64,000 nucleotides of DNA from Diplonema papillatum (lineage: Eukaryota; Euglenozoa; Diplonemea; Diplonemida; Diplonemidae): NCBI GenBank assembly GCA_030068145.1, contig JAPJBO010000219.1, forward strand, positions 62,001-126,000. Direction: 5' to 3'. Under the pieces are notes generated by a model. That model had not been told where the DNA came from and made no database searches. It was given only the letters and a program-made list of their open reading frames with translations. Both the position numbers and the translations under genes were made by a program. Positions 53-64,000 of this stretch are shown here, one piece after another (position 1 is the first letter of the stretch; each line of letters starts with the position of its first letter).

Positions 53-438
53 AGGCAACCCTGGCTAGCCAAAGCTAGAAGCGGGCAAATATGTGTCTAC
101 ATCCCATCCACTACCAGACTCCCAGCCTACACGGGTAGGAGGGGGAGGAGATGTGATAGCGTACGTACGGGTTGGAAGAACAACAAAAAAACAACGTGGA
201 AAACTGTTGGGGGTGCCTTTGACCACCCAGCAAGGGTAGCTTAAGGAGAAGATTAAGGTGCATAACCCCCCTGGTTGGGTTGAAGGGGAATGAAAAAAGG
301 AGAAAGAGACCTGCCATTGAAGGAAACAACCACCCCCCCAGCTGTTCCAGAGGAACTCCACTCCACTCCTCCTCCCCTATCCTCTCTCGACCCAGGACCT
401 GCCAACGTTTCCGGGGGGCGGCGCAACCGCGTGTCGCA
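53..438. other. 5' flank of START gene, no gene seen
   Basis: Low-complexity AT- and G-rich sequence lies upstream of the START gene. Frames are open on both strands, but none has the GC-rich third codon positions of the exons in this window. No TATA-like box or shared leader motif was recognised. Confidence 0.4.
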
Positions 439-1578
439 ATGGACAAGTTCTGGGCGTTGTATCCGACGCCGAGCCCGTGGCCATCCCCGGGGCATGACGG
501 CCCGCCGCCGGCAGCGCTGGAGGCAATGATGGACGACTGCCTGCGCGAGGTCCAGACCTCGTTTTTCACCGACACGACCGTCGACGGCGTCGCTTGGAGC
601 AAGGACAAATCGGGCCCGATCACCGTCCTCGGGGCGAAGCACAAGAAAAGCTCGTCGAAGCGCTTCCGCATCGAAGCGGTGGTCGAAAACGTGTCGATCG
701 AGTCGGTGATGGGCGTCGAAGCGGACCGAAGGAACAAACTCGACTGGGACACCGCGATCACGTGGATCCACCCGATCCGCCGATACGCCACCGAAAACGG
801 AGACTGGCTGGACATCGAAGCCTACACGTCAGCCCCGGCGGGGGGCGGTGCGATATCGCCGCGATTATTCGCCGACGGCAGACTCACCCGGTTGATACGC
901 TCGGACACGGGGAAGCTGCAGAAGGTGTTCTCCGGCGTGGCAGGTGTGCGGAAATCAACGCCCTACGCTGACGCTGCAGGGATCACCGAGCTCGAGAAGA
1001 ACATGGAGGCCACCAAGCTCGTGCGGGCGCACAATTCGACAGGCAGCGGGTTGTACTTAGAGGCGGTCGGCCCCACGACAGTGCGCATCGTGGTCCTCTC
1101 GCACATGGAGATCGGAGGCTGGTTGCCGTCGTCCCTCGTCAACGGCGCGACTGCCGGCGCCCTGGCCCACATGGTGCACTTGATGGTCACCCACGCGCGA
1201 AAGCACCCAGACCTCCCGATACCTCCCCCACTCGGAACCGTCGGCGCGCCAGCGCTCGGAGGCCCCGAAGCACCCGTGGTGGAGGAGCAACCGGTTGCTG
1301 AGCCGCCGCCCGCGGTGCCGCCCACTTCGCCCTCCGAAGAGCGCAAGCCCGAGGCCGCTGGCAGCGGCGACGCGCCGGGCAGCGCCGCCGGCAGGGCGGC
1401 GTCGGTGCGGAGCGAAGGGTCGGTCGCGTCGCAGGACAAAGCTGCGGCGATGCCGCCGCAGTTCGCGCGGCACCTCGACCACAGACCGCGGTCTACGTCG
1501 CGGCCGACCGTCCGCATCCGGCCCCCGCATTGCGCGGATGAATCGTGGTATACGTGGAAGTACGCAGACGTGTGCTGA
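439..1578 (+). CDS. START-domain lipid-transfer protein
   Basis: The ORF is 379 aa from the ATG at 439. Residues about 20-250 read as a StAR-related lipid-transfer (START) domain, a hydrophobic-cavity fold that binds sterols, phospholipids or ceramides. Visible marks are a W preceding a D/K-rich strand near the start, NKLDWDTAI in the middle, and the C-terminal VVLSHMEIGGWLPSSLVN followed by a helix (AGALAHMVHLMV). No signal peptide or membrane segment is seen, so a cytosolic protein is likely. Residues about 260-330 are a Pro/Ala/Glu-rich linker. The last 50 residues come from a sequence repeated downstream. A GTGTGC, which fits the splice-donor pattern used elsewhere in the window, lies at 1570, nine bases before the stop, so the true gene may continue through another exon. 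The lipid ligand cannot be inferred. Confidence 0.75.
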   Translation: MDKFWALYPTPSPWPSPGHDGPPPAALEAMMDDCLREVQTSFFTDTTVDGVAWSKDKSGPITVLGAKHKKSSSKRFRIEAVVENVSIESVMGVEADRRNKLDWDTAITWIHPIRRYATENGDWLDIEAYTSAPAGGGAISPRLFADGRLTRLIRSDTGKLQKVFSGVAGVRKSTPYADAAGITELEKNMEATKLVRAHNSTGSGLYLEAVGPTTVRIVVLSHMEIGGWLPSSLVNGATAGALAHMVHLMVTHARKHPDLPIPPPLGTVGAPALGGPEAPVVEEQPVAEPPPAVPPTSPSEERKPEAAGSGDAPGSAAGRAASVRSEGSVASQDKAAAMPPQFARHLDHRPRSTSRPTVRIRPPHCADESWYTWKYADVC

Positions 1579-10440: not shown

Positions 10441-11207
10441 GATTTTCCGACGGAAACCCACTGTTGCATCAATGTAATGGCCCAAATCTGACCGAAAACC
10501 GCTGTTACATCGATGTAATGGGCCAATCTGGGCGGGAAACCACTGTTACATCACTGTAATGGGCCGAATTTCACAGAAACCACTGTTACATCAATGTAAT
10601 GGCCCAAATTTGACGGAAAACCACTGTTACATTGATGTGATGGGCAGAATCTGACGGAAAACCACTGTTACATCAATGTAATGGCCCAAGTTTGACGGAA
10701 AACCACTGTTACATTGATGTAATGGGCAGAATCTGACCGAAAACCACTGTTACATCAAATGTAATGACCCAAATTTGACCGAAAACCACTGTTACATCGA
10801 TGTAATGGGCAGAATCTGACGGAAAACCACTGTTACATCGATGTAATGGGCAAATTTGACCGAAAACCACTGTTACATCGATGTAATGGGCAGAATTTGA
10901 CGGAAAACACTGTTACATCGATGTAATGGGCAGAATTTGACGGAAAACCGCTGTTACATCGATGTAATGGGCAGAATCTGACGGAAAACCACTGTTACAT
11001 CAATGTCATGGCAGAATCTGACGGAAAACCACTGTTACATCAATGTAATGGGCAGAATCTTGACGGAAACCGCTGTTACATCAATGTAATGGGCAGAATC
11101 TGACGAAAACCACTGTTACATCAATGTAATGGGCAGAATTTGACGGAAAACCACTATTACACCAATGTAACGGGCCGAATTTCACAGAAAACCACTGTTA
11201 CATCAAA
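10441..11207 (+). repeat. 41-bp satellite, left arm of PAL-1 (about 19 units)
   Basis: The unit contains GGAAAACCACTGTTACAT, then CGATGTAATGGGCAGAAT. Each unit holds the palindrome TTACATCGATGTAA or a one-base variant, so units can self-pair as well as pair with the opposite arm. Confidence 0.9.
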
Positions 11208-11420: not shown

Positions 11421-12400
11421 CTACATTGATGCAAGTTGCAACAGTGGTTTTCGGTCAAATTTGGCCCATTACATTGATGTAACAGTGGGTTTCCGTCAAA
11501 TTTGGGCCATTACATTGATGTAACAGCGGTTTTCCGTCAGATTCTGCCCATTACATCAATGTAACTGTGGTTTTCCGTCAGATTCTGCCCATTACATTCA
11601 TGTAACAGTGGTTTTCGGTCAAATTTGGCCCATTACATTGATGTAACAGTGGTTTTCGGTCAAATTTGCCATTACACTGATGTAACAGTGGTTTTCCGTC
11701 AGATTCTGCCCATTACATTGATGTAACAGTGGTTTTCCGTCAAATTTGGGCCATTACATTGATGTAACAGTGGCTTTGCGTCAAATTTGGGCCATTACAT
11801 TGATGTAACAGTGGTTTTCCGTCAAATTTGGGCCATTACATTGATGTAACAGTGGTTTGTCAAATTTGGGCCATTACATTGATGTAACAGTGGTTTTCGG
11901 TCAAATTCGGGCCATTACATTGATGTAACAGTGGTTTTCCGTCAGATTCTGGCCATTACATTGATGTAACAGTGGTTTTCCGTCAGATTTGGGCCATTAC
12001 ATTGATGTAACAGTGGTTTTCCGTCAGATTTGGGCCATTACATCGATGTAACAGTGGTTTTCTGTCAAATTTGGGCCATTACATTGATGTAACAGTGGTT
12101 TTCGGTCAAATTCGGCCCATTACATTGATGTAACAGTGGTTTTCGGTCAAATTTGCCCATTACATTGATGTAACAGTGGTTTTCCGTCAAATTCTGCCCA
12201 TTACATTGATGTAACAGTGGTTTTCCGTCAAATTTGGGCCATTACATCGATGTAACAGCGGTTTTCCGTCAGATTCTGGCCATTACATCGATGTAACAGT
12301 GGTTTTCGGTCAAATTTGGGCCATTACATTGATGTAACAGTGGTTTTCCGTCAAATTCTGCCCGTTACATTGATGTAATGGCCCAAGTTTGGGCCATTGC
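11421..12400 (-). repeat. 41-bp satellite, right arm of PAL-1 (about 24 units)
   Basis: Same unit as the left arm in opposite orientation (TTACATTGATGTAACAGTGG, then TTTTCCGTCAAATTTGGGCC). Unit variants differ between arms, so the arms are not one recent copy-flip. The arrays appear to have evolved by local duplication. Confidence 0.9.
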
Positions 12401-26256: not shown

Positions 26257-27210
26257 ATGCCCCCGAAGGCGCAGGCGAGAAACGGGGATGAGCTTCTGGA
26301 ACGGGAGAAGAAGATGGAGGAGCTGGAGCGGTCTCTTAAAGAGCGCGAGGATAAGCTGAGGGAAGCTGAAGAGCGGCTGAGGGAGCAGCAGCAGCGGGGA
26401 AGAGCGCTGGAGGACCCAGAGGAACCGCGAGCGATACGAAGCAGGCCAGCACCCCTGCGTCCCGAAGCGTTGCTGCCGGGGCTGGGCGCTGATCGAGCGG
26501 GCACCATTTTCGACGCGTTTGAAGACGAGTATCCGGGTTTCTGGTCGAAGCTGGATCCGGATACGCTGCAGGAGCTGGCCCTAGTGAGCGACGAGAATGA
26601 GGCGTTGGATTTGCTGGACCAACAGGTGCCTCGCAGAAATAATGGAATGCCCGGCGAGGACGAAGACGAGGACGAAGACGATGACGACTTCCGGACGCTA
26701 GACGCGGCGTTTTGGAAGGACGCCCCGGTTGGGGTCAGAGGGTTTCTTCTCCTCGAAGGTGCGGTGTCGCGTCTATACCGTTTTCGCAGCAATCGAGAGC
26801 TGCAGGAAAGACGAGACGACGTCACGGCCAAAGTCCGAGAGCATTTGAGAATGCGGGGTCCGACGTCGGCCGCGCCGATGTGGATGCTGAAGTTGACGCG
26901 TCTGTTCAACGAATATGAACAACTACAAGCAATATACGACACGAGGAACCCGGCGGCGGGCCATGAGATGCGCGGCATCCAGGAGACGGCGCGACTCCCG
27001 AAACACGTTGCGGAGGCCCGTAGACGACTGAAGGCCGTTGTCAAGCAGCGCGGGAACGACCGGGTTGCGAACGCGAGGGGGCCGGCGGGGATCTGCCACA
27101 ATTTCCGCAATGGGCGTTGCGTTCGTGAGCGTTGTAGGTTCAGGCACGTGTCCGCTCCGCAAAGGACCTCCGGGCCAGCGTCGGCAAAGCGGAGCCCAAA
27201 AAACGATTGA
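26257..27210 (+). CDS. gag: Gag-like protein of YR retroelement
   Basis: 317 aa from the ATG at 26257. Residues about 10-55 are a charged coiled coil rich in E, K and R. Residues about 135-145 are a run of D/E. A CCCH-type zinc finger lies near the C-terminus (CHNFRNGRCVRERCRFRH, spacing CX7CX4CX3H), a likely RNA-binding element used in place of the usual CCHC knuckle. The stop is a UGA and the same frame stays open after it, straight into the recombinase ORF. The role as nucleocapsid is inferred from position and zinc finger. Confidence 0.75.
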   Translation: MPPKAQARNGDELLEREKKMEELERSLKEREDKLREAEERLREQQQRGRALEDPEEPRAIRSRPAPLRPEALLPGLGADRAGTIFDAFEDEYPGFWSKLDPDTLQELALVSDENEALDLLDQQVPRRNNGMPGEDEDEDEDDDDFRTLDAAFWKDAPVGVRGFLLLEGAVSRLYRFRSNRELQERRDDVTAKVREHLRMRGPTSAAPMWMLKLTRLFNEYEQLQAIYDTRNPAAGHEMRGIQETARLPKHVAEARRRLKAVVKQRGNDRVANARGPAGICHNFRNGRCVRERCRFRHVSAPQRTSGPASAKRSPKND

Positions 27211-27297
27211 CTCCCCTCCCAGGCGTCGTGGGAGGGAAGGATAGAGAAGTTCGAATCCGTTGCAATCGCAGCTTCGACGAGGAGGCAGAGGCTGTCG

Positions 27298-28134
27298 ATG
27301 GAGGGAACCCTGGAAAAGTTCTCACAAGTGGCAGGGCTTCGAGCGGCACCCGCTTCCCTACGGATCAGAGCGTTCGCGGCGGCTATGCTAGACGGAATGG
27401 GCGAGGCCCAGCTTGCTCGCTACACGACGCGAGAGGCAGGCAAGCGGGGCCGCCCAAGGACCGGGAAGATGCGCACTGTGTCGGTGGAACAGTACGTAAG
27501 CGTACTCGGATCGAGATGGGGTGTCCCACCGGCGGATCTGGCGACGACGAAGAGGGCCATCCTGAAACGCCGCTTGGAAAGGAGAGAGACGCCGAGTCAC
27601 GCACACCCACTGCGTTTGGAAGAAGCACGGAGCATCCTCGACGTCGTCTCGGGAGACGAGGAACTCGCGGCCGCGGCGATACTCCTTTGGAGTTGTGCGC
27701 TGAGGATGGCGGACCTCACTGCGCTGAGGCCGGGGGACGTTTCGATGCAGGCCCCGGGTGTAATCCGAATCACCTGGTGGACGTCGAAAGAGGCGAGTCT
27801 TCGGCTACACGAGTCGGAGGTAACGTACAAGCTCCCTCTGAACCTGGCGGCGAAGGTGAGGAGGTGGTTGGCGCACCGCGGGACGTTTGGCAAGGCAACC
27901 GCACCGACTTTGCTGCGGGCGGCAAAAAGCGTTGTTCCGGCTTGCTCCGGTCACAGCTGGAAGAGGGGTGCTCTACAGCACCTGGCGAGGGGCGGTGCCG
28001 ATTGGGAGGAGCTTCTGCTCCTTGCGAGACACGCATCGGTGACAACGCTGAGGCGTTATCTTTGGGGTTGCGTGACCCCAGACCACCGACGGACAGAAGG
28101 ACTGTCCGCGCATCTGCATGCGCCAGTGTTCTAG
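27298..28134 (+). CDS. tyrosine recombinase of YR retroelement
   Basis: 278 aa. The catalytic set is present: Arg in ALRMADLTALRPGDV, HSWKR (H-x-x-R), a second His in ARHASVTTLRRYLWG and the Tyr nucleophile in the same segment. The enzyme would cut and rejoin DNA to insert a circular cDNA. The first ATG is at 27298, but the frame is open back to the Gag UGA at 27208 (29 sense codons), so a Gag-stop-YR read-through product is possible. The whole ORF is overlapped by an open frame in the RT phase. Confidence 0.85.
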   Translation: MEGTLEKFSQVAGLRAAPASLRIRAFAAAMLDGMGEAQLARYTTREAGKRGRPRTGKMRTVSVEQYVSVLGSRWGVPPADLATTKRAILKRRLERRETPSHAHPLRLEEARSILDVVSGDEELAAAAILLWSCALRMADLTALRPGDVSMQAPGVIRITWWTSKEASLRLHESEVTYKLPLNLAAKVRRWLAHRGTFGKATAPTLLRAAKSVVPACSGHSWKRGALQHLARGGADWEELLLLARHASVTTLRRYLWGCVTPDHRRTEGLSAHLHAPVF

Positions 28135-28140
28135 CTTGTT

Positions 28141-28760
28141 CTGCAGAACGACCGCCTCCGCAGAGGCACCCTTTGTCAGAGGGAACGTGCTCCGCAGAGC
28201 AACCGCCTCCGCTGAGGTACCCCTTACCAGAGGGAAAACGCGCCAGAGAGCACCCGCCTCCGCAGAGGCACCCCTTGCCAGAGGGAAAACGCGCCACAGA
28301 GCGCCCGCCTCCGCAGAGGCACCCCTTGCCAGAGGGAATACGCGCCACAGAGCGCCCGCCTCCGCAGAGGCACCCCTTACCAGAGGGAACCAGCTCCGCA
28401 GAGCGACCGCCTCCGCAGAGGTACCCCTTGCCAGAGGGAAAACGCGCCACAGAGCGCCCGCCTCCGCAGAGGCACCCCTTGCCAGAGGGAATGCGTGCCA
28501 CAAAGCACCCGCTTCCGCAGAGGCAGCCCTTGCCAGAGGAAACCTGCTCCGCAGAGCAACCGCCTCCGCAGAGGTACCCCTTGTCAGAGGGAAAACGTGC
28601 CACAGAGCGCCCGCCTCCGCAGAGGCACCCCTTGCGAGAGGGAATGCGTGCCACAAAGCACCCGCCTCCGCAGAGGCACCCTTTTCGAGAGGAAACCTGC
28701 TCCGCTGAGCCACCGCCTCCGCAGAGGCAGCCGTTACCGAATGGAATCCGCTCCGCAGAG
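28141..28760 (+). repeat. 51-bp in-frame minisatellite between YR and RT
   Basis: About 12 units of GCCTCCGCAGAGGCACCCCT, TGCCAGAGGGAA and CGCGCCACAGAGC. The length is a multiple of three, so the RT frame stays open and would encode a 17-residue repeat with core PPPQRHPLPEG. This sits exactly between the recombinase stop and the first RT-phase ATG. Confidence 0.85.
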
Positions 28761-28790
28761 CGAGGCACAAATAGCCGTCCCTACACAGAG

Positions 28791-30611
28791 ATGTCTCGCT
28801 TGGAGAGTTCGCGGGACGACTCTGCACTGAAAATGAAAGGGTCACCAAAAGTTAGTTCATTCTGCCCTGCTTATGCTGAAGACCTGAGCGCGTTCCATCC
28901 TTTGAAGGAGTGGGTTGAGAGGTTTCACCCTGGGGCTCCAACAGCAACGTTAAGAGCGTTTGAATGGGCAGATGCTGCGATGCAGGGCGACCTCGGCGAG
29001 AAATCGGAAGAAGAGTACGATAGAGAGGAGCGCGTCGAGAGCCTCATCGTCGAAGCACGACCTGACGTCGTAGCCAAGGTGCGATCATCCGAATCCGTAC
29101 TGGGCGCGTTGGCTATGCGATCGTACGCGAGATCTTTGCCAAGACCGATTCTCCAGAAGGCCGACGGACCGCTGGACACGATGCCGAGCACAAGGGCAAA
29201 ATATGCGGTGATCGAACAAGGTCTGACGGACACCGAGGCATTCACGCTGCGCCAATGCACGCAGGAAGTGATGCTCACGACGACGGAAAGGTACCAGGCA
29301 TTACCTAGCCTGGATATAACGGAAGATGATCTCAACGTGATGTTGAAATGCGGTATTGTGAAACCCGCAGGGCGAAGGCCAAGGATCACTCTGCGAGTTT
29401 TCAAGGTTGGGGAAAAAGGCAAAAAGGAGACACGGTTGCTCATTGATGGTCGGCCTTTTGACCTCCGAACAGCACATGTTTTATCTCCGAAGACCCCGTC
29501 GCTGAGAGACATTGAATCTTTTGTGCTAGAGTTCTCTGTGTTCATGGTTCTCGATCTACTGGGTTACTTTTATCAGTTACCAGTGTCGGAGGCACTGTCG
29601 GAGTCTCTCGGATTCAGAGCAAGGGGGGGTAGGTACTACCTTTTTACTATCGCGGTACCGGGTATATCCCGTGCGCCCACCGCTGCGCAGCTATCAACCC
29701 TTGGGGTTCGGCGCATTGCGGGCGTATCACAAAGCAGTCTTGCCGTTTACGATGATATTGCACTGGGCGGCCCGACCGAAGAGGGAGTTCGCGTGAAAGA
29801 GCAGCGGTTACGAAATGCTCTAGAGGAGGCAAACATCCAAGTAAGGGAGGACAAGGTGACTACCCCGTCTCCAACGGGAGTCTTCGACGGAATCCAGTTA
29901 GACCTTGAAGGCAAGACACTCGCTATCCCGCGCCAGTGGGCAGATGCTGTATCAAGTCAGGAGACTCCGGGAAAGATCACTTCGTTCAGGGGTCTGGCCC
30001 AATTTGTGGGTTGTTTGCGGTGGGCGTTGTATGTCATGAGGAGTCCGGCGGCCGCATATCCGAAGTTGTTGAGGTTGAACCGGCAGATAAGCCGAAGATG
30101 CGTAACCAACAAGGATTGGGATACAGTAGTCGCGCCTTCGCAGGAGCTCTTGGTGGAAATTGGCAGGGGGAAAACGTGGTTGCGCGAATGCGTTCCCCGC
30201 CAGGTTGGACGCAACGAGAGGAACCTGCACGTCTGGACAGATGCTTCGGATCAGGGAGGTGCTTTTGCGGTGCTGGACCCGGCGAGAGGCACGATACTCG
30301 CTCGGGAACGGTGGACCTGGACGGAAAGATTGACGCAGTTGGCCCCACCAACACCCATACGGCGCCGAGAACTGGTGACAGCAGCTATCGGTCTTCGCGT
30401 CGCGAGAGAGATCTCTGCCGGGTGGGTCAGGATGGAGGCCTTCCACGACAACAGCACCGCAGAGACCCGGTGCAGGAAGTTGGCATCCCCCCATTTGGCT
30501 GAGAACCGTCTCCTTGTCGGACTGTGCGCGCATCTACAGAAGGCGGACGTCCGAACACACCTCGTTCCGAGTCAGAACATGGTTGCGGACATGGACACGA
30601 GGAGTGTATAA
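28791..30611 (+). CDS. reverse transcriptase / RNase H of YR retroelement
   Basis: 606 aa from the ATG at 28791. The frame is open much further upstream through the minisatellite and the YR region. RT motif A reads MVLDLLGYFYQLP and the catalytic motif C reads AVYDDIALGG. RNase H follows with all four acidic positions: VWTDASDQGG, RRELVTAAIGL, FHDNSTAET and NMVADMDTRSV. The N-terminal ~190 residues before the RT have no recognised domain. There is no endonuclease, integrase or protease, consistent with a YR-mobilised element. Uninterrupted reading suggests recent activity. Translation could need re-initiation, a shift or a spliced message. Confidence 0.9.
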   Translation: MSRLESSRDDSALKMKGSPKVSSFCPAYAEDLSAFHPLKEWVERFHPGAPTATLRAFEWADAAMQGDLGEKSEEEYDREERVESLIVEARPDVVAKVRSSESVLGALAMRSYARSLPRPILQKADGPLDTMPSTRAKYAVIEQGLTDTEAFTLRQCTQEVMLTTTERYQALPSLDITEDDLNVMLKCGIVKPAGRRPRITLRVFKVGEKGKKETRLLIDGRPFDLRTAHVLSPKTPSLRDIESFVLEFSVFMVLDLLGYFYQLPVSEALSESLGFRARGGRYYLFTIAVPGISRAPTAAQLSTLGVRRIAGVSQSSLAVYDDIALGGPTEEGVRVKEQRLRNALEEANIQVREDKVTTPSPTGVFDGIQLDLEGKTLAIPRQWADAVSSQETPGKITSFRGLAQFVGCLRWALYVMRSPAAAYPKLLRLNRQISRRCVTNKDWDTVVAPSQELLVEIGRGKTWLRECVPRQVGRNERNLHVWTDASDQGGAFAVLDPARGTILARERWTWTERLTQLAPPTPIRRRELVTAAIGLRVAREISAGWVRMEAFHDNSTAETRCRKLASPHLAENRLLVGLCAHLQKADVRTHLVPSQNMVADMDTRSV

Positions 30612-53229: not shown

Positions 53230-54166
53230 ATGATGCCGGCCGGTCGGAGCGTAGCGCCGCTGATCTGGCTGCTGCTGGCGGCCTGGGGCCCGCCGCCGGG
53301 CGTGCGGGCCCAGGACACGCCCGTCTTCGTGGCGCCAGAGGAGCTGGAGGGCGGGTGCCAATATTCGGAGACGGCGACGTCCACCTGCGCCGCCGCTGGG
53401 CTGGTGGCCATCTTCGACCCGGAAGATTGCGGGCGGGCTGTCGCGTACCTGGACGCGGGCCCTGATTTCCACCCCACCGTTGAAGACTCATCGCTCAGCA
53501 CGGACTCTTATCCCCCAGGTTGCTACGTCTGGACGCAGAACAACAACAAGCTGTACATAAACGTGGGCACCACGAACATCCGTTCCTGCAGCACCGAGTA
53601 CACCTGCGTGTGCATGACGTCCGCGTGTGTGGACAGCGCGGCTCCGCAGACGGCCGCGCCCGCAACGAGCGAACCGACCGTCGCGCCCACGACGCTGGCG
53701 CCGACGGCTGCACCCGATACGATCGGCCCCACAGCGGTGCCCGCAACGATCGCCCCGACGGTCGTGCCCACGACGCTGGCACCGACAGGCGCTCCCGCAA
53801 CGCTCGCACCCACAGATGTGCCCAAGACGATCGCACCCACAGATGTGCCCAAGACGATCGCACCCACAGATGTGCCCAAGACGATCGCACCCACAGATGT
53901 GCCCAAGACGATCGCACCCACAGATGTGCCCAAGACGATCGCACCCACAGATGTGCCCAAGACGATCGCGCCCACAGATGTGCCCAAGACGGTCGCACCC
54001 ACAGATGTGCCCAAGACGATCGCACCCACAGATGTGCCGAAGACGATTGCACCCACAGATGTGCCCAAGACGATCGCACCCACAGATGTGCCCAAGACGA
54101 TCGCACCCACAGATGTGCCCAAGACGATGGCACCCACAGATGTACCCAAGACGATCGCACCCACAG
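53230..54166 (+). CDS. large membrane receptor-like protein, exon 1
   Basis: The ATG at 53230 gives a signal peptide (MMPAGRSVAPLIWLLLAAWG, likely cleaved near VRA-QD). A ~110-residue Cys-containing domain follows, with SYPPGCYVWTQNNNKLYINV, a pattern (PPGCY ... LYxN) seen in many secreted algal and protist proteins. From residue ~145 the chain is APT-type Thr/Pro linker, about fourteen copies of the nonapeptide APTDVPKTI. The exon ends at 54166 before GTGTGC with phase 1. Unspliced reading runs into a stop about 70 bases later. Confidence 0.75.
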
Positions 54167-54180
54167 GTGTGCCCAAGACG
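53815..54180 (+). repeat. 27-bp coding minisatellite (APTDVPKTI)
   Basis: Unit CCCACAGATGTGCCCAAGAC plus GATCGCA, about 14 copies, very homogeneous. Some copies read CCCACAGGTGTGCCC, which contains an AG|GT junction. Confidence 0.9.
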
Positions 54181-54562
54181 ATCGCACTCACAGTTTTCAC
54201 TGAGGGATTTGATGCACCACGAAAGTCGATTAGGTAAACTCTACACACAGCTTTCAGGGTGGTTGATTCAAAGAAACACGCCCAAGCTCGTTTCCCCGGG
54301 TCAAAGCAAATACTTTGATCATAGGTGTCACGGCAAACTTTGGCAGCCGCTGCTTAGCTAAATCCATGTGGTTCATGTACTTAAAAGAACTCAATGCTTA
54401 ACTAAATTTGACGTGGGCGGCTTTAGATTTACATCTGAATGACACCTCAAACACAAAAAAAAACAAGTTGTCGACAACTAACAAGTAAAAGAATGAAACA
54501 AAGCTACGCATTTCTTCTAGGCAGTTCTCGTCAGACAATACGAAGGGCAGAAATTCCCACAG
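54167..54562 (+). other. 396-bp intron inserted in the minisatellite
   Basis: Donor CCACAG|GTGTGC, acceptor TTCCCACAG|GTGTCC; both are versions of the repeat unit itself. Removing it restores the APTGVPETIAPTG reading frame. The insert carries TTTGGCAGCCGCTGCTTAGC and the R1 repeat (54362-54405), so a mobile sequence appears to have become an intron using splice sites supplied by the repeat. Confidence 0.65.
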
Positions 54563-55412
54563 GTGTCCCCGAGACGATCGCGCCCACAGGTGTACCCACG
54601 ACGCTGGAGCCGACGGGCGGACCGCAAACGATGGCCCCCACGGGCGTGCCCGCCACACACGCGCCCACCACCGTCCCCGCGGCGGCAGTAACGGCCGCGC
54701 CGTCCGCCTCCCCCGCAACGGACGCGCCCGAGACGGCGGGCCCGGGGCCGACGAACGGCACCTCGCCGCCGCGCGCTCCGGACGACCGCACGGGGGCTCC
54801 GGACACGCAGCTGCCGACGAACCCGGCCGTGACAGGCGCGCCGCAGAGCGCCGCGCCAGCCACGACGAGCACGCGGGCTCCCGACAGCGACTCGCCCGGC
54901 GTGGGTGCGCCGCCGACGAAGCCGCCGCCGGTTGCAGGGGCGCGGTTGGTGTGGACGTACGCAGACGACGTGAAGTCGGAGACGGTGGCGGCGGTGGGCA
55001 TCCGGGTCCGGATAGCCGCGAGCCTGGCCACCTTCGACGCGAACAACTGGCGCGCCGAACCTCGGTCGATCCTGCGCTTTTCGACGAACAACCCGATGCT
55101 GTCGCGCGGGCTGCAGGCGGCGCTCGGCAGGCACGAACTCACGCTGGCGGTCGACCGCAACAACCGCACCTTCGTCGACTTCTCGATCCGGTTTGCCGAG
55201 TACAGGGCCGACATGGACGAAACCATCACTTTCACCCTCGCCGACGACGCGGTTACCGGCGGCACCGACATCCTCCGCGCGCAAGGATACATGCAGGCAA
55301 AGGTCACCGTGCACCACGTGGAACCTCCCGTTTCCGAAAACGTCGTCGCCGTCAGCGCGGTCATGAGCGCCGCAGCCTCCGCTCAACAGCTCGCGCTTCT
55401 GATGGACGTCGA
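54563..55412 (+). CDS. large membrane receptor-like protein, exon 2
   Basis: Continues the APT linker (about 110 residues), then a ~150-residue ectodomain from ARLVWTYADDVKSETV to AAASAQQLALLMDVE. It includes RSILRFSTNNPMLSRGLQAA and NRTFVDFSIRFAEY, probably beta-rich. The AAASAQQLALLMD helix is of the kind that precedes polytopic tails in related protist proteins. The exon ends at 55412 before GTATGC with phase 2. An unspliced reading would stop at 55431. Confidence 0.7.
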
Positions 55413-55439
55413 GTATGCAGGGCTTCCTTAGTAAAGGGG

Positions 55440-56335
55440 GGGGCTTTTTTTTTTGTATAAGCACCCAGGGGTTATTCTAATCCCCGAAATTCTGGAAAAT
55501 CCCGGTTAAAAAATCTTTGATATGGCCAGAATTTTTTTTTTCCCACGCTGCGCGTGGAAAGCATGGATTGCTGAAGCAAGCAGTGTCCCACACAGTAGCG
55601 TCATTACGTTAGCACAGTGTCGACAGCGGCAGCACCACTAAAACCAAATGCGGCGAGCGACATCTCTTTAGTTTCAAAATCCTTTCGGGCTTGCGAGCTT
55701 CAGGATAGCAAACGATCCTCCAGTGACTGATTACTGGGTGTGATGGAAAACACAATCTGGCTGCTGCTTCTCCACTTTGTTGTAGCCTTCACTTGTCAGT
55801 CCCAGTGGGCACTACAGCGATGGCCTCAACGCCTTTCAACGCATCAGGGCGAAGCTGCTCACGACAGGCGCCCCACAACACGCTAACCCCAACGCCCCTC
55901 ATGCCCCATAGATATTTCTGGACCAAATTGCTGGCAGGCTGTGTCACACAAAACAGCAACTACGACTCCAGGATCTGAGCCTGTAGCCTGGGTCCCTTGC
56001 CAAAAAGTTCTCACCAGAAATCCCCATGGTTAAAAAATATTTTTTCACCGGCCTGTTTTCAGATTTTTTTTTTTTTGGTGAAAAAATTTTTTTTTAACCA
56101 TACAGGATAATCCCTGTAAGCACCTGCTTTGTAGGAAATACTTGAGGAGGCTGCCAGCTGCAAAAGATCAAAGGAGGTAAACGTGCTGTAGCCCACACGA
56201 AACACAGGTGAATCTGGGTTCAGTGCAGGCGGGCGTAAGCGTTCAACAAAAAAGACCCATTTTGTAGTTGTATTGTTTCTCCCCCTCTAGCCTCCTTCGA
56301 AGTAAGCACAAGGCAGCCCCTCGAGTATTTTTTTT
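55440..56335 (-). repeat. SINE-A copy split by a hAT-like element
   Basis: Poly-T then GTATAAGCACC (55451-55465) is interrupted and resumes at 56117 (TAAGCACCTGCTTTGTAGGA) down to CTCGAGTATTT. It lies in intron 2 of the receptor-like gene, antisense to it. Confidence 0.8.
55466..56116. mobile_element. non-autonomous hAT-like element (651 bp)
   Basis: Flanked by the 8-bp direct repeat TAAGCACC (55458-55465 and 56117-56124). Ends are CAGGGGTTATTCT and, inverted, CAGGGATTATCCT. An 8-bp duplication and CAGGG-type ends are hAT hallmarks. The interior has AT-rich inverted tracts (GGTTAAAAAAT) and no transposase. Confidence 0.85.
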
Positions 56336-56640
56336 TACATAAGCGCCAGCTTGAAAGGAAATGCTCGACGATGCTGCCCGACAAAGAACAGAAGGGATCC
56401 CAAGTGCTGTAACTACCGAACCACGTGTTGAACGGACGTGAGGTCATGCGGGTCTACCCCTACACGACAAATCACACAAACACAACAGGTCAAAGTCCTG
56501 AGTGAGAAAACAACACACGGTGGTGTAAGCGAAGAACAAATCAGATTGTGTTTGTATTGTATTTGCCCCTTACCTCTATATTTCCCCCCTTTCATTCGGA
56601 GTCGAAGCAGCTACGTCGAGTATTTTTCCCCAGCCACATA
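56330..56640 (-). repeat. SINE-B copy
   Basis: Joined directly to the 5' end of the SINE-A copy: poly-T, ACATAAGCGCCAGCTTG ... GTCGAGTATTTTTC. Nearly identical to 33946-34252. Confidence 0.8.
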
Positions 56641-56751
56641 TAAAAGGTGACGCGGGACAAGCCGGCAGCCGCTGCTTAACCGCTTTTTATCGCTATTAGT
56701 GCATGCTGATCCATGTGGTCCATGTACTTTCTTGAATCAACGACCACTACA

Positions 56752-56875
56752 TGGACCCAAAATTTGGACCCAAAATTTGACCCAAAGTTTGACCCAAAGT
56801 TTGACCCAAAATTTGGACCCAAAATTTGGACCCAAAGTTTGGACCCAAAGTTTGGAACCCAAAAATTTTGGGCCC
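56752..56875 (+). repeat. 13-bp minisatellite (TTTGGACCCAAAA)
   Basis: About nine units of TTTGACCCAAAG / TTTGGACCCAAAA directly before the LINE fragment. Its frame encodes a meaningless DPKFGPK repeat. Confidence 0.8.
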
Positions 56876-56984
56876 AAATTTGCACCTGCCCTATAATCCC
56901 GTTTCAAAACAAATTTTGCGCCCACATCCCGAACCGGGATACAAGGGCACAAATTTGTTTCGGCCGGGACATAAGGGCATTCCA

Positions 56985-58145
56985 CCTATCTTTAACCACA
57001 AATTGAGTTCCGCGATCAGTCGATGTCTTGGGGGAGCGGTGTACTCACGGGAATGGTGCCGCAGGAAGTGGGGTTCGGGGAGCGGCGACTGCGAGTTCTG
57101 CGACAGCGGTGCGACGGGGACCCTGTGGCATTACTACTGGCAATGTCCGGGCCCAGGTTGTAGATGGAACGAGCTGCGATCCCGGTTTTGCATTGCTGAG
57201 GCGATGGTCCGGGACATGCCCCAGTGCTTGTGCATTAGAGGGATACCCCCCTACGGGACCCCTCCTGACCTCCTGGAGAAGATCCAGAGGCTGATCGGTA
57301 CGATCTCAATCGAGATGGCGCAGGCGCAGCGGAGCCTTGCGGCAACACGCCCTTGGGAACTCGCCTCAGGTGCGTCGACGAAATACGACGTACACTTAGC
57401 AACGGACAGTCGTAAGTTGCTTACGACCAACATCGGAACCCGCTTCGCAGCGACGTTGGTCTTCTGGCTGCGGAGTCTATCGTGGGTCAGCTCCAACCCT
57501 CTCCCGACGACAGGCGTGGAACTCGCGCTTGATTTTGAGGCATTTACGCGTTCGAAGCTCCCAGGGAGAACCTTCGCCGAGAAGGGGCTGCAAATTGGGT
57601 ACCTTATGCGAGCTATCAACGACCTGTGCTGCGCCGACTCAGGAGTCGCCTCCTTCCCTGGGAAGTGGCGGCAGGGGGTCTGTTCCCTCCGCTGTTTTGG
57701 TGCGCCGGCTATGCCGGGTTGTACCCACCGCCCACGCTTTGCGGCTGGACGGAAGACCGAGTGGATGTTGGGCAAGCTGGAAACAATTTGCGCCCGTAAC
57801 AGCTGGAACGATGCCGTGCCTGAATATCCGCACGACGTACCCTATGTTCAGTGGGAGTTGAGATTCTCTGTCAAGATGCTAGCCGCCGCCATAGGGCGGG
57901 CTATTGCCAAAAGGAGGAGAGCCCGCGAAACAACGTGTCAACACACGCCTGCCAGGCGGTCTCGTCCGCCAGTCAGAACGCCCCCGGCTGCGCCACCATC
58001 GGTGCAACAATCATCTTTGACAGGGCCACGGCTCGCTCCGCGCCCACGGCGCAACGACTTGCGCCCGCCGTAGAAGTACGGGATAGTAGTGGGGCGACCG
58101 GATACTCCTCGGAGAGATGGTCCCTGCACTCTATCTCGTCTCTCT
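56985..58145 (+). mobile_element. 5'-truncated LINE copy (3' end)
   Basis: An open frame to 58073 encodes the LINE C-terminal region. A zinc motif CEFCDSGATGTLWHYYWQC (CX2CX9HX4C), typical after LINE RT domains, is followed by ~270 residues with LATDSRKLLTTNIGTRFAAT and a basic, Pro-rich end (RRSRPPVRTPPAAPP). The 3' UTR ends GTCCCTGCACTCTA and is followed by a TC-repeat. It lies in intron 2 of the receptor-like gene in sense orientation. The intact frame suggests a young insertion. Confidence 0.8.
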
Positions 58146-58312
58146 CTCTCTCTTTAACCATCCTTCAACGTTCTTCCGCTCGGGCCTTTTGTTTGCGCAA
58201 TGCGGGGCGGCTTCCACAATTTTGTTGGTCGCTTCCATTCGGAGTTCACGGCAAGTTTCTTTGCGCTTCTAGCTTCCTCATCGAATACGATCTAACACAC
58301 AATCCACTGCAG

Positions 58313-58472
58313 GTGCGGAAATGGCTCGAGGACTAAAGTGCCGCGTTCTATGCATCCGCTGGGCGTATCGATTGACCACTCCGACTGCTTTGGGGCGCTG
58401 GTATGGGATACCACGATTGTCACGTCGGCCGCAATCATTCAGTTCTTGATGGCCCTGCTGGCTGGTTATGTG
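58313..58472 (+). CDS. large membrane receptor-like protein, exon 3
   Basis: After CACTGCAG one base completes the Glu codon left by exon 2, then 53 codons without a stop: CGNGSRTKVPRSMHPLGVS ... ALVWDTTIVTSAAIIQFLM ... LLAGYV. The HPLGVSIDHS and the following hydrophobic helix suit the junction between ectodomain and first membrane segment. It ends before GTATGT in phase 0. Confidence 0.7.
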
Positions 58473-58662
58473 GTATGTTTAGCGCTCTCCTAGCGTCGCA
58501 ACCGGATCCTCTAAAAGGCGGGTGCTTTTTTATGGTAACAACCGCGGTTGTCATTATCAAGAAGTGACGGTTGGCAGCGTACTGTAGAAATTACCATACA
58601 GGTGATAGCACACTACGCACAAACAACCGGATACTAGATGAAAGAAAGTCTGCTTTGGGAAG

Positions 58663-58800
58663 TTGTATTGTATAAGCACCCGCTTTGTGGGAAATGCTGC
58701 CAGTTGCGATAGATTAAAGGAGGTACATGTGCTGTAGCCACACGAAACACAGGTAAATCTGGGTTTAGTGGCGGGCGTAAGCGTTCAACTTTTTTCGTTT
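58663..58800 (-). repeat. SINE-A copy in intron 3
   Basis: TTGTATAAGCACCCGCTTTG ... GGGCGTAAGCGTTCAAC, a 3' half copy within the 501-bp intron 58473-58973. Confidence 0.75.
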
Positions 58801-58973
58801 CAGTTTTCTGCATCCTCTTCAAGTAAAGTAGCCATCGATGCATGTGATACGCCGCGAACTACCAACCACTAAATATGCATGCGAATGAGTATCGTTCGCA
58901 TGTGATACGCTGCCAACTGCTGCCGTCTACAGCTTTTAGAACCAACGACGCATTGCCACCGCAAACCATACAG

Positions 58974-59657
58974 GTGAAGTTCAACTCCTTCCTGGTACCC
59001 ACGCACTGGCTCCCCGTGCGGACCGTCCGCGCCGCGCACGGCCTCGTCCGCTTCCCGGGCGGCCTGCTCTTCGTGTTCTACTTCCTGTACCAAGGCCAGG
59101 CGAAGTGCGCGTGGATCCTCACCTTCGACGGCGGCGTGCACACCGTCGTCGGCCTCTTTTTCATGTCCCTGCTCATCGCGCTGCCCTTGTGGATATCGTG
59201 GTTTCTGTACAATGAGTTGAAGACCCGACAAGCGAGGTACCGGGAGGTGGACGAAAGGCACGGCAAAGTGTTCGAGTTCATCATGGGGAAGGGTGAGTGG
59301 GTGAGCAGGCGTAGGAAGAACCCGGTGACCTTTCGGTTCAGCTTGCAGCTGCGCGCGTTCACCGCGCGGTGCGGGTGGTTTCTGCTGCTGGACTTCGCCC
59401 TGATGATGGTGATCGGCCTCGGGAGCGCGATTCCAGCCACGTCGTACCAGCAGTGCGGCCACGTACGCCTTGCCCTGGGGCTTGCGACGGTGATCTGCTT
59501 GGGCGTCGAGCTCTATTTCCAGCCGCACATCCGGCCCAGAGACAACGTGTTCGACTGCATACGGTTCATGCTTCAGGCCACCGGCCTCTTCTGCCAAGGT
59601 CGGGCGTACTACGCAGAAAACATCACGCACCCGGCGATGATAGCCGCCGCCATGATC
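58974..59657 (+). CDS. large membrane receptor-like protein, exon 4
   Basis: Starts in phase 0 after ACCATACAG. It encodes 228 residues with about four to five membrane helices (FPGGLLFVFYFLYQG, VVGLFFMSLLIALPLWISWFL, WFLLLDFALMMVIGLGS, LALGLATVICLGVELYF) and the motif FQPHIRPRDNVFDCIRF, resembling the QPyxxxxdN signature of TRP-like polytopic tails in protist surface proteins. It ends in a helix (MIAAAMI) at GTATGT, phase 0. An unspliced reading would run to a TGA at 59697 inside PAL-10. Confidence 0.75.
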
Positions 59658-59687
59658 GTATGTGCCTTATTACACACCTACACTACG

Positions 59688-61332
59688 TACTGCATATGAG
59701 TCGATGCCAAAAGGGGGGGGGGGGGGTTTGGGCGGAAAAATCCCCGCATAGTTCACCAGGGTCTGACGGGTACTGAGGCCCCATACCCTTCCTAAAACAT
59801 CATTCTGCGTTCAAATACGCCCTCAGAAGCCTCCGGAGAGCCTTCTATGATGTCCCAAATGCGATTTTGTGGGTTTTTAGGGGGTCCCCCCGTCTGCTGG
59901 CCGTAAACCGCCATAGAAGACACATATGCAACCTGATGCTGGGTCGCTCCTCGGAGCAAAATCTCGGCCTAAACACACGTTTTCGGCGTTCTCTATCATT
60001 CTCCAGGTGCATTCGACCCTCGGACTTCATAAATTATCTCGCTTACAGGTGTTCCGGGGTGTGCAAAAACAAGGCGAATGGACCCTACAGACCGTACCAC
60101 GCCCTGCCTGTCTATACAGGCTTTGGGGTCAAATTGCGCCGCCTTGGCGCCATGTGCACCGTTTTGGTCTCGTTCGTGCTGCTTTGGGATCCACTAAGAA
60201 CTCTGGTCTGATTTGCGGGACGCTTTGCTCGGTTTTGGTGCCCACTTTCACCGTTCAAAGTGCATCCAGTGGTGAAGACTTTGCGCCGAAGCAGGAGAGG
60301 AAGCGACCCAGTAGGCGCCACTTCACCGTGAGCGGGTCTCGGAACAGAACTCAAACTGTCCCAGGTGATACTGCCGACCATGGCGGGTGTGTGCGCCACA
60401 CAGTTTGTCTGACCAAGCTCACTGCACAGGAGCTTGCCACACATCCCTCGGGTCATGTGCCGCCTCTGCAAAGTCATCCAGCGAGAAGCACTTTGCAGCC
60501 ATGGGTGAGAAAGGTGCCAGAAGGGAAGACATTGCCAGGAAAGCTCTGAAAGCCTGCCCTGAAAGCGGTGAAGCCTGCTTCAAAATCATGAAGTGAACGC
60601 GTCGTAGTCAACCGCTTCGACGACGTTTGAGAACGGCTGATGATCGCCTGTTACTTAACGCTTGTCCTACTTCGTTCACCAAGCCTTGCAGAATCACCAG
60701 AGTAGCATAACATGATGCAGGTAGAAGCCTAAACAGGCCTTAGAACAGTGAAAGTGGGCGCCAAAACCGAGGAAAGCGTCCCGCAAATCAGACCAGAGTT
60801 CTTAATGGACCCCAAAGCAGCACAACCGAAGCCCGAAACGGTGGATGTGGCGCCAAAGCCGGTGCAATTTGACCCCAAAGCCTGTATAGACAGGCAGGGC
60901 GTAGTTCGGTCTGTCCCCAATGCAGGGGGCCATTCTCCTTATCTTTGCACGTCCCGGAACACCTGTGAGTGAAAGAAACCACGAAGCCCGAGGGTCGAAT
61001 GCGCCTGGAGAGTGCTAGAGAACGCCGAAAACGTGTGTTTGGGCTGGGATCTTGCACAGAGAAGCGACCCAGCTTCAGGTTGCATATGTTTCTACTATGG
61101 CGGTTTACGGCCAGCAGACGGGGGGACCCCCTAAAAACCCACAAAATCGCATTTGGGACATCATAGAAGGCTCTCCGGAGGCTTCTGAGGGCGTATTTGA
61201 ACGCAGAATGATGTTTTAGGAAGGGTATGGGGCCTCAGTACCCGTCAGACCCTGGTGAACTATGCGGGGATTTTTCCGCCCAAACCCCCCCCCCCCCCTT
61301 TTGGCATCGTACCATATCATAGTACTGCTAAC
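59688..61332. mobile_element. palindromic element PAL-10
   Basis: Ends TACTGCATATGAGTCGATGCC and, inverted, CAGTACTATGATATGGTACG-ATGCC, then CAAAAGGGGG runs. Arms 59688-60258 and 60745-61332 are similar throughout (GAAAAATCCCCGCATAG, ACCCTTCCTAAAACATCATT, AAACACACGTTTTCGG). The ~490-bp centre has only a small ORF. Outer ends match PAL-8. Confidence 0.8.
60387..60596 (+). CDS. possible small ORF in PAL-10 centre
   Basis: A 69-codon frame; its last 32 codons (MGEKGARREDIARKALKACP ... ACFKIMK) from the ATG at 60501 look more protein-like and end at TGA 60594. It is unlike the PAL-8 protein. Weak support. Confidence 0.25.
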   Translation: MCAPHSLSDQAHCTGACHTSLGSCAASAKSSSEKHFAAMGEKGARREDIARKALKACPESGEACFKIMK

Positions 61333-62246
61333 GGTGTAGTGTATGCATACACACACGTAGCATGTACCATGGGTAACACAGTACGTATGCATAGTAGTAC
61401 TACGTACGTACCTATATGCAGTGCTGCTAGGTGGTAGCTGTGTAGAGCACTAGCACTAGGAGGTGGTGGGTAGCTGGGCTTACGCTCCACGTGCGGAGCG
61501 TGCGGATTTCCACACGTTAATTTCTTTTTTTTTCTTCTTTTGGACTTTTTTCCCCCACGTGTGCTTCCACGTGTGGATCGTACCACGTGTGGATTTTGAT
61601 ATAATTCTTCCCCACGCGTGCGTACCACAGGTTGGTCCACATGCAGGGGTGTAGGCCCACATGGGGCGCCCACACAAAAATGAGAGCGCTGCTCTGAGTA
61701 AGTCGAATCGTCGCAACATGCAACAAAAAAAATCTTGGATGAATTTGCAGCCCGTATCACAGCAGTCATACTGTCTGCTGGCGCACGAGTCCGCTATCAG
61801 GAGCCCAGCGGAAAAGCAACAGAATGGGCCACTTGGCTAATGCACGAGATCAAGTCTAGCTCGAAGATACGATAAAACAAAACATTTCTTTTGGGTACCC
61901 TACCGGGGACGAAGAAGACACGGTCCGATCAGGATGTTGATAAGACATCTCAAGGTAACGCTCAGCCACTGGAATGTTCCCACTGTGGGGCAACCGAAAA
62001 ACTGAGCGGCGGATCTTGCGCCAACGCACGGGGTGTCGAAATCCACGAGCGCACCTGTGCAAAAAACCCCGCATGCCAACAAAGTACCTAGCCCAGTCCT
62101 ATCTGGAGCGCTGGCCCGGCGAGCTACGAGGGCACAAACCTTTTCCTTTTCCCCCGTCTCTTTTCCATTCTTGCATATCAGGCCTGCATGCCCCAGCAAA
62201 AGCATTCGAAAAGAAAACAAACGAGCGTTTTACCACCTTGCGTGGT

Positions 62247-62287
62247 GTCACGGGATGTTTGGCAGCCGCTGCTAAACATCCCGTGAC
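62247..62287. repeat. 41-bp near-perfect palindrome
   Basis: GTCACGGGATGTTT pairs with AAACATCCCGTGAC, with inner GCAGC/GCTGC. The centre GGCAGCCGCTGC is also found at 54341 and 56663, each near an R1 repeat, so this may be the outer end of the R1 element. Confidence 0.75.
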
Positions 62288-63014
62288 CGAGGGCAAGCAG
62301 CCTCAGAAACGACCGGGGACCACGGGCACACCAATGCCCTCGAAAGTGAAAAACGGGCACACGTGCCCGCCCTCGTACTCGCCGACTCAGTCTCTGGAAT
62401 CGCAAGAAAGCCAAACCCCGCTAGCTCCACAAATGCTCGACCTTGACGACGCAATGGCAGGTGACGACGTCATCCGATAACCTGACTTTCAAGGCAGTGC
62501 ATGCTAATCCATGTGGTTCATGTACTTAAAAGAACTCAATGCTAAACAAACATAACGTGGGCGGCGCCGAAGCTTTACCAGCTCCGGCTGACACCATTTG
62601 CGCACTTAACCATGGTTAAGAAGACGACTGAAAGCACAGACACGAAGATAGCTCAAAGCATTTGCAAATAACACGAAAAGCCTCTAGGCAAAACCCCGTT
62701 TTCACATTTCTTTTGAATACCCTGGGGGCAAGGCTCCGGACGACGACAGAAGACGACAGGAACAGCTGCTGCAAGAAGACAACGACGCATTCTGGCCCTT
62801 CGCTGCATCGATGAACTGGTCTGCTCGGCGCCGCGGTGCCATGTCAAAGCCTGCGCAGAACACTGCATCAATTGTCATTTTCCGCTGACAGCCCGTAATC
62901 CGCTGTACCCCACACTGAGATGCCACCTTTGCGAAAGGTACACCTCATCCGAATGCTGTCACGGCTTGACAATTTCTGCTGCCACCGCACTTGATTCGTT
63001 TGAATGCAAACACT

Positions 63015-63075
63015 GCTCCGTTTTACTCCCGTGTCTGCGGGGGTGAGACGACAACTACTGCTACTACTACTGAAA
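63015..63075 (+). repeat. CTA-tailed repeat (copy 1)
   Basis: GTTTTACTCCCGTGTCTGCG, GGGGTGAGACGACAACTA then a (CTA)n-like tail. The sequence before the tail can form a CTCCCG/CGGGGG hairpin. Confidence 0.6.
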
Positions 63076-63389
63076 AGCCGAAACCGGAAAACCCCGGTTT
63101 CTGAAACCGGGAAACCGTGTTTCCAAAGTCCCCTGCCTTTTGTAAAACCCCGACAAGAACCAGGCACGAATCCAGCGGGCAAAACTTGAATCTGATCACA
63201 CTATCCCGGACGCCTTTTGACGAGGCGGCAGCGTTGCTGTTGGGAGACGAAACGGGGCAGCGGCATACTTATATATATACCGGAGCATCTTTGGCTTTTT
63301 CGACAATGTGCGCGGCGCCGTCGAGGTCTTGTAGGAGGCAGTGGAGCCTGACAAGTGACACCGTGTCGCCGGCTTCCTTGTAGAAGTGC

Positions 63390-63453
63390 AGGGTTTTACT
63401 CCCGTATCTGCGGGGGTGAGACGGCAACTATACTACTACTACTACTACTACTG
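63390..63453 (+). repeat. CTA-tailed repeat (copy 2)
   Basis: GTTTTACTCCCGTATCTGCG, GGGGTGAGACGGCAACTA, then (CTA)~8. It shares hairpin and tail with copy 1 but not the upstream DNA. Confidence 0.6.
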
Positions 63454-63481
63454 GATACCCTATCACCACAAGCACGCACTA

Positions 63482-63560
63482 AGCTGAACTTCACAAACAC
63501 AAAAAAGGTCGAAAGACACCAATCTGCACGCCCGTTCGGGATCGTCGGAAACACAAAAAA
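63482..63560 (+). promoter_or_regulatory. leader block shared with 20536-20612
   Basis: CACAAACACAAAAAAGGTCG ... GGGATCGTCGGAAACACAAA, ending seven bases before the exon acceptor at 63567. Its position at the end of an intron argues against a simple promoter role at this copy. Confidence 0.4.
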
Positions 63561-63567
63561 ACGACAG

Positions 63568-64000
63568 TTCCTGATCGCGATCTTCCTGCTCATCGTGAAG
63601 CTGCTGATGGACATCGGCTGCGAAGTGTACATCTTCCTGAAGCGGAGGCGCACGATCCTGCAGAAGATGGAGTGGGCAGAGTTCGACTACAGCGACGACG
63701 AGGCGGACCAGCCGGGCGACGGCCAAGGGGGGCACAAGTGCTACGAGCTGCCGAGCCTCGGTGCAAAGGGTTCGTCTGTGTTGGAGGCCAGCGAGGTTCC
63801 TGAAACACGGTCGTGGAATGGGCTGAAGGACGAAATCGCGAATCCGCTTCTAGACTGGGACGCGTTGAAGGGGGAAGTCAATGCGGACGTCGTGAGCAGG
63901 CAGAAGTCCGAAGACCGGACATGGCTTGAGCTCGTCGCCGATGCCAACACCGAAGGATCGCCCTCCGTGGCCCCGGGTTTTCGGCGGCCCAGCGGGTTCA
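63568..64000 (+). CDS. large membrane receptor-like protein, exon 5 (runs off window)
   Basis: Opens in phase 0 with FLIAIFLLIVKLLMDIGCEV, completing the helix begun in exon 4. A basic KRRRTILQK (inside-positive) and a cytoplasmic acidic tail (EFDYSDDEADQPGDG ... RTWLELVADANTEG) follow without a stop to the window edge. No kinase or other enzymatic domain is seen yet. The gene thus exceeds 10.8 kb. Confidence 0.7.

Follow-up and report, generated by a model that had tools for sequence, protein, structure and literature searches.

Several open reading frames (ORFs) follow one another at the right-hand end of a 64,000-nt stretch of Diplonema papillatum DNA (the window; positions 62001-126000 of the 278-kb contig C219, JAPJBO010000219.1). 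Are they separate genes, remains of a broken gene, or exons of one gene, and if they are exons, where did the introns come from? Comparison with the genome (271 Mb searched, 2910 contigs) indicates that the five apparent pieces are very probably one large surface-protein gene interrupted by four introns with mobile DNA in them. Taking all evidence together, we consider it highly probable that this is a nuclear diplonemid gene with ordinary GT-AG introns, that it belongs to a large paralogous family of membrane proteins, and that its intron 1 was gained after the minisatellite coding for its stalk. Diplonemids are among the most abundant marine microeukaryotes (PMC10161547), and the gene illustrates how an ORF-by-ORF reading splits proteins of this kind.

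Five exons in one reading frame

The initial annotation described a gene of more than 10.8 kb, rebuilt from five exons. When these exons (Table 1) are joined, they form a single open frame with junction phases 1, 2, 0 and 0 in order, as had been claimed. The frame of exon 5 extends beyond the window and its stop ends at window coordinate 64323 in the next contig sequence; from ATG to stop the gene measures 11,094 bp, and its product of 1128 amino acids (aa) is encoded without any stop among the joined codons. The donors of introns 1 to 4 are GTGTGC, GTATGC, GTATGT and GTATGT and the acceptor is CAG in 4 of 4 cases, so that every intron has the GT-AG ends of the spliceosomal type, with the annotated GTRTGY donors and CAG acceptors. 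The phase agreement is uninformative at junction 1, because both splice sites there fall at equivalent positions within a 27-bp coding unit.

Junctions 2 to 4 could be compared with paralogues. A genome query of 348 aa, which starts at the end of exon 2 and reaches into exon 5, gave 174 candidates, 116 of which were scored and matched, including 3 from the gene itself. Among the 113 non-self rows, 73 run unbroken over junction 2, 91 over junction 3 and 110 over junction 4 (margin 8 residues); junctions 3 and 4 are both crossed in 89 rows, and all three junctions in 71.

A profile hidden Markov model (HMM) was built from the 19 of 24 paralogue loci with an unbroken core; three near-copies, two loci of interrupted genes and the window gene were left out. 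Against this model the joined exons score 305.8 bits, which places them in the family with the conserved membrane core (CGHV, GPGEWVS and RRxxLQ motifs). Searching the model against six-frame ORFs of at least 40 aa in the window and the loci L002-L004 gave exactly three matches at E up to 10, namely the ORFs of exons 3, 4 and 5, which tile the model (Table 1); the exon 2 part (HMM positions 1-50) had no match of its own in this search. We also ranked the GT-AG pairs lying within 150-200 nt of the proposed sites, retaining pairs that produce stops (fully open pairs: 11, 38 and 51 at junctions 2, 3 and 4). The proposed pair ranks first of 180 at junction 2 (124 gave a score), third of 325 at junction 3 and first of 315 at junction 4. 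In the paralogue alignment, junction 2 falls immediately before a conserved cysteine, and several extra residues follow junction 3 in the window gene. The last membrane helix, MIAAAMI|FLIAIFLL, crosses junction 4 gap-free in every paralogue reaching that far, which bears out the earlier claim of a helix completed only by the join of exons 4 and 5. By the ranks and the tiling, junctions 2 to 4 fit the family better than chance would allow.

Junction 1 draws its support from the domain architecture of paralogues and from the empty site of the insert described below. A paralogue at C132:296351-300364 (L018) contains the signal peptide, the PPGC domain, the APT stalk, the core and the tail within one open frame of 1285 codons. 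In a second member on C132, a single frame of 642 codons runs from the PPGCY domain through a short stalk into the beginning of the core, and on C372 the PPGC domain and stalk share one ORF, with the core in the next. Compared with the N-terminal domain of the window gene, those of C372, the second C132 member and L018 score 48, 37 and 32 bits, against best shuffles of 23, 25 and 19 bits; no shuffle was as good as the real match (0 of 100 for each). In the window gene, too, the N-terminal cysteine domain and APT stalk precede the core, and this N-terminal domain is not carried by all members (that of L010 differs). The product layout proposed at the outset (signal peptide, PPGCY-type domain, APTDVPKT linker, ectodomain, membrane region, acidic tail) is matched in outline by the single-ORF paralogue L018. 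The exon 2 ectodomain is weakly similar to that of the paralogue on C564 (pairwise E 0.002).

Paralogues coding the core without a break, together with the one whose entire architecture lies in a single ORF, strongly support one spliced gene, as annotated. Exon joins 2 to 4 are shown at the comparative level, and family membership and the in-register insertion in intron 1 are shown as well.

Table 1. Features of the gene, in window coordinates
Feature	Coordinates	Strand	Content and basis
Exon 1	53230..54166	+	Signal peptide (by eye), PPGCY-type cysteine domain and beginning of the APTDVPKT stalk, coded by 27-bp repeats; translation, paralogue domain, repeat units
Intron 1	54167..54562	+	396 nt; insert of ~369 nt between two edges of coding repeat, 21 nt on the donor side and 6 nt (CCACAG) on the acceptor side
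Inserted repeat DNA in intron 1	54188..54556	+	Shared left end, multi-copy right-end tail, internal 206-bp repeat
Exon 2	54563..55412	+	Last part of stalk, ectodomain, stretch leading to the membrane core
Intron 2	55413..58312	+	2900 nt; repeats among compared loci cover 45%
Exon 3	58313..58472	+	Conserved Cys, HP motif, first core membrane helix; HMM 51-106, E 1.1e-8, paralogue alignment
Intron 3	58473..58973	+	501 nt; repeat 58668-58789 occurs genome-wide; final 33 nt single-copy
Exon 4	58974..59657	+	Bulk of the polytopic core, G(P/K)GEWVS and CGHV motifs; HMM 107-332, E 6e-61
Intron 4	59658..63567	+	3910 nt; repeat with A-rich end stopping at 63558-63562
Fold-back (palindromic) element in intron 4	59694..61317	.	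Outer arms 392 nt, 92% complementary
Exon 5	63568..64000 (stop at 64323, outside the window)	+	Last helix, RRxxxLQ motif, acidic then Ser/Pro-rich tail; HMM 328-377, E 6.5e-10

Intron 1 and the origin of the introns

Both edges of intron 1 are coding-repeat sequence (Table 1). When positions 54188-54556 (~369 bp) are taken out, the array is restored in its 27-bp register: ...GATCGCAC|CCACAGGTG.... Thirteen units of the array read ACAGATG and have no GT there; in the unit directly ahead of the insert and in the two directly behind it the sequence is ACAGGTG, which creates AG|GT. The insert interrupts the array in register, so its insertion postdates the array and both splice sites derive from codons. 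Its left end, from 54188 onward, is common to two other loci, one of which also has the right end, to 54557. The right-end tail occurs in 1203 genome copies (control 0), in places as 42-bp tandem copies, and a 206-bp repeat lies inside the insert at 54311-54516 (3127 first-look candidates in the genome, 40 scored). (C/T)CACAG stands at both insert ends, so that the breakpoints can be shifted by up to about 7 nt; it may be due to chance, to the array sequence or to a target-site duplication, the last of which is indistinguishable from the repeat.

This in-register insert argues for intron gain in which both splice sites would be taken from the target, a variant of known introner behaviour. Repeat DNA would have entered one 27-bp coding unit, in one event or several nested ones, after the stalk minisatellite existed, and the spliceosome would use the AG|GT of the flanking repeat codons as donor and acceptor, removing the insert and keeping the frame automatically. 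In its broader form, the proposal is that intron 1 is young, that mobile DNA landed in a minisatellite with units changed from D to G and thereby carrying AG|GT, that the repeat codons supply both splice sites and keep the frame whatever is inserted, and that introns of the family are largely recent gains from mobile elements; for this whole we see an even chance. In terms of introners, what is found is an apparently removable insert in coding sequence, with both splice sites in repeat codons and an empty site in register. Introns 1 and 3 were also considered as strict introners, in which the element ends at the splice sites, and this was rejected: the repeats seen do not end there. The origin of new introns is an old question and there are, to our knowledge, few examples in which the empty site and the source can be read. 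Intron 1 offers such a readable empty site and is open to reverse-transcription PCR and strain comparison; if the proposal is true, minisatellites that code for protein stalks would offer new introns a landing site prepared in advance.

Of the four interruptions of the window gene, three fall in the core region and one in the stalk, and most family matches have the core in an unbroken frame. In a tree of 24 rows the window gene groups with C564 and L010 (98/94), and both of these relatives lack introns 2 to 4: in C564, one piece spans junctions 2 and 3 and a second piece junction 4, and the core of L010 is unbroken, with an open frame throughout. C372, C132 and C564 are interrupted at other positions (approximate). 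Since no intron position is seen to be shared among the four intron-bearing members compared (approximate in the other three), separate gains are favoured, and introns 2 to 4 are probably lineage-specific gains; we infer gain rather than loss.

Repeats among compared loci cover 74, 45, 45 and 27% of introns 1 to 4, respectively. Introns 1 and 3 contain DNA repeated genome-wide, and introns 2 and 4 contain DNA repeated among the compared loci. Intron 3 ends in 33 nt that have no second copy in the genome. In intron 4, the repeat with the A-rich end is found in three other places and stops 5-9 nt before the intron end, and the palindromic element noted initially is real, with inverted arms at 59694-60085 and 60926-61317.

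Several points weigh against one spliced gene with recently gained introns. The removal of the four introns from RNA is presumed from sequence. The 113 non-self rows are rows, not genes, some of them being duplicate contigs or two pieces of the same gene, and only 116 of the 174 candidates were scored. Two alternative pairs at junction 3 lead the proposed one by 1.0 and 0.9 bits; both have the acceptor 6 nt later (58980) and one also the donor 3 nt earlier (58469), and the placement of this junction is uncertain by a few residues. Searching the genome at E 0.001 with the N-terminal domain gave C372 as the only match besides itself, and with the exon 2 ectodomain itself only. The intron-bearing members need 3 label changes on the tree, and 72 of 500 shuffles were as low, like chance. 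Finally, the family tree is unrooted, which leaves room for loss of introns 2 to 4 in the relatives, and the decay test given below is weak.

Among the alternatives, the one that survives best accepts splicing and takes the introns to be old: single-frame relatives would have lost theirs, for example through mRNA copied back, and intron 1 would be an old intron filled with repeats later. Introns rich in mobile elements have been described from this genome (PMC10161547), and the unrooted tree is compatible with it. However, it sits poorly with the lack of a seen shared intron position, and an older intron does not predict that intron 1 splits a unit of a near-identical coding array whose 27-bp register is restored by its removal. 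We regard old introns as rather unlikely.

It is less probable still, and in our judgement improbable, that the locus is a pseudogene in decay, which insertions of mobile elements have broken into pieces that are never spliced together. Repeat DNA is present in 4 of 4 interruptions, and a frame continued into introns 1, 2 and 4 runs into stops at 54237, 55431 and 59699. Against this, the 1128 joined codons are free of stops, splice consensus stands at every intron end, and at junctions 2 and 4 no tested pair fits better than the consensus one. Had the gene decayed neutrally from the arrival of the nested repeat onward (4.5% divergence, a star estimate from the 18 copies most like that of the window), 2.6 stops would be expected in the downstream 815 codons and 0 are seen (chance 0.074), which is only suggestive. 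The weakest alternative, that the pieces are separate genes of a polycistronic unit, each capped by spliced-leader trans-splicing, starts from the trans-splicing and unidirectional gene clusters of the host (PMC10161547) and is hardly credible, as exons 3, 4 and 5 hold only successive portions of a single conserved domain that is encoded in one frame by 71 of 113 matches.

A family of stalked membrane proteins

The one spliced gene that we favour would encode a secreted cysteine domain carried on a Pro/Thr/Ala-rich, probably mucin-like stalk, with the conserved polytopic core as anchor and the tail inside the cell. The mucin-like stalk and the surface role are suggested by composition, and the likely role of the protein would be that of a sensor or adhesin at the cell surface, with a core resembling a channel or a receptor.

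The initial annotation also called the membrane region TRP-like. A whole-protein Pfam search of the gene gave no match at E <1, PF06011 (TRP) included. However, at E up to 1, PF06011 matches 4 of the 14 core regions of the alignment (best 7e-4), and of seven cores that were re-scanned two match it at 19.1 and 17.8 bits, in the C-terminal half of the core; six other cores had no match to it at E up to 0.5. Neither the gene nor any scanned paralogue reaches the gathering cut-off of 28.5 bits. The part of the label that stands is therefore a weak, sub-threshold likeness in a minority of paralogues; none is seen in the window gene, and 'TRP-like' is a weak lead, not membership.

Searches of solved structures returned nothing up to E 10 for the 14-member alignment and nothing up to E 1 for the N-terminal domain. 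AlphaFold prediction of exon 4 alone had a mean predicted local distance difference test (pLDDT) score of 57, too low for a fold search. Viral contigs searched with the core profile gave 6 pattern matches, none of which was confirmed. In an abstract-level survey of the literature, nothing relevant to such a protein family was found, and the terms TRP, kringle, mucin and surface protein do not occur in the main text of the genome paper (PMC10161547). The locus thus opens a large family of stalked membrane proteins that the main text of that paper does not mention by name.

Some further observations concern the family and the surroundings of the gene. C340, C162, C132, C382 and C38 each carry more than one family match, and within any one of these contigs the matches share a strand. 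The paralogue L010 (C536:100872-104897) has a different N-terminus, kringle-like by eye and without a Pfam match, which suggests that ectodomains are exchanged on a common stalk and core. On the reverse strand of C564:78001-94000 (L033, L034), a second partial copy of the GPGEWVS segment lies behind the first in the C564 paralogue. Directly beyond the stop of the window gene on C219 (L002:660-3600), degenerate copies of its own 3' end are followed by a long array of ~39-bp units (by eye), a layout resembling the repeat-bounded genes described in PMC10161547.

Elsewhere in the window, an ORF at 223-1578 (+) contains a lipid-binding domain of the START type (31 bits against a cut-off of 22, Pfam E 2.1e-7), and two 41-bp satellite arrays at 10449-11206 and 11440-12378 lie in opposite orientation and form a large inverted repeat. 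An ORF of 1157 aa at 27138-30611 (+) is retroelement-like by eye, with reverse transcriptase (YDD), RNase H (WTDASD) and PPPQRHPLPEG repeats, and has no Pfam match at E 0.01. A 20-nt motif of the diplonemid spliced leader has 624 copies in the genome and 0 in the reversed control, and a search for the chlorophyll a/b-binding (light-harvesting) family PF00504 gave no match, as fits a heterotroph. D. papillatum, whose published assembly comprises 280 Mb in 6181 contigs, uses spliced-leader trans-splicing and has 110 spliced-leader RNA genes (PMC10161547), fewer than the motif copies; the excess may come from retroposed leader ends.

Comparison with known intron systems

In D. papillatum, introns are reported in about 41% of genes, mostly of GT-AG type and with a median below 1 kb, and some hold complete or partial mobile elements; strand-specific RNA-seq of the species is described in the same paper (PMC10161547). 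The introns of the window gene are of this same canonical type, and mobile elements within them are ordinary for the genome. What goes beyond the ordinary is the readable origin of intron 1, together with the paralogous family left unnamed in the main text of the genome paper, where 'intron gain' is not mentioned either.

For other diplonemids, the noncanonical introns of Hemistasiidae have been proposed to come from MITE-like (miniature inverted-repeat transposable element) insertions, and intron positions are reported as not conserved between three diplonemids (PMC12621601, which also reports D. papillatum to be open to genetic manipulation). That proposal shares with ours mobile DNA as a source of diplonemid introns, whereas it concerns noncanonical introns and the window gene has GT-AG introns and a readable empty site. 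Abstract-level surveys of the literature yielded nothing relevant on intron gain in diplonemids and nothing equivalent on intron gain with minisatellites.

In the intron gain of potato RdRp, AGGT reportedly supplies both splice sites. This gain took place by tandem duplication (PMC4974935) and resembles intron 1 in that a new intron comes out of duplicated coding sequence; in the window gene, however, the repeated units were already there as an array, and the body of the intron consists of repeat DNA that was inserted. In Florenciella, for example, introners are described that draw both of their splice sites from the place of insertion (PMC9860276, whose main text mentions neither Diplonema nor euglen-). 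Unlike there, the target in the window gene is a coding minisatellite; the two cases are alike in that mobile DNA in coding sequence would become an intron with both splice sites provided by the target.

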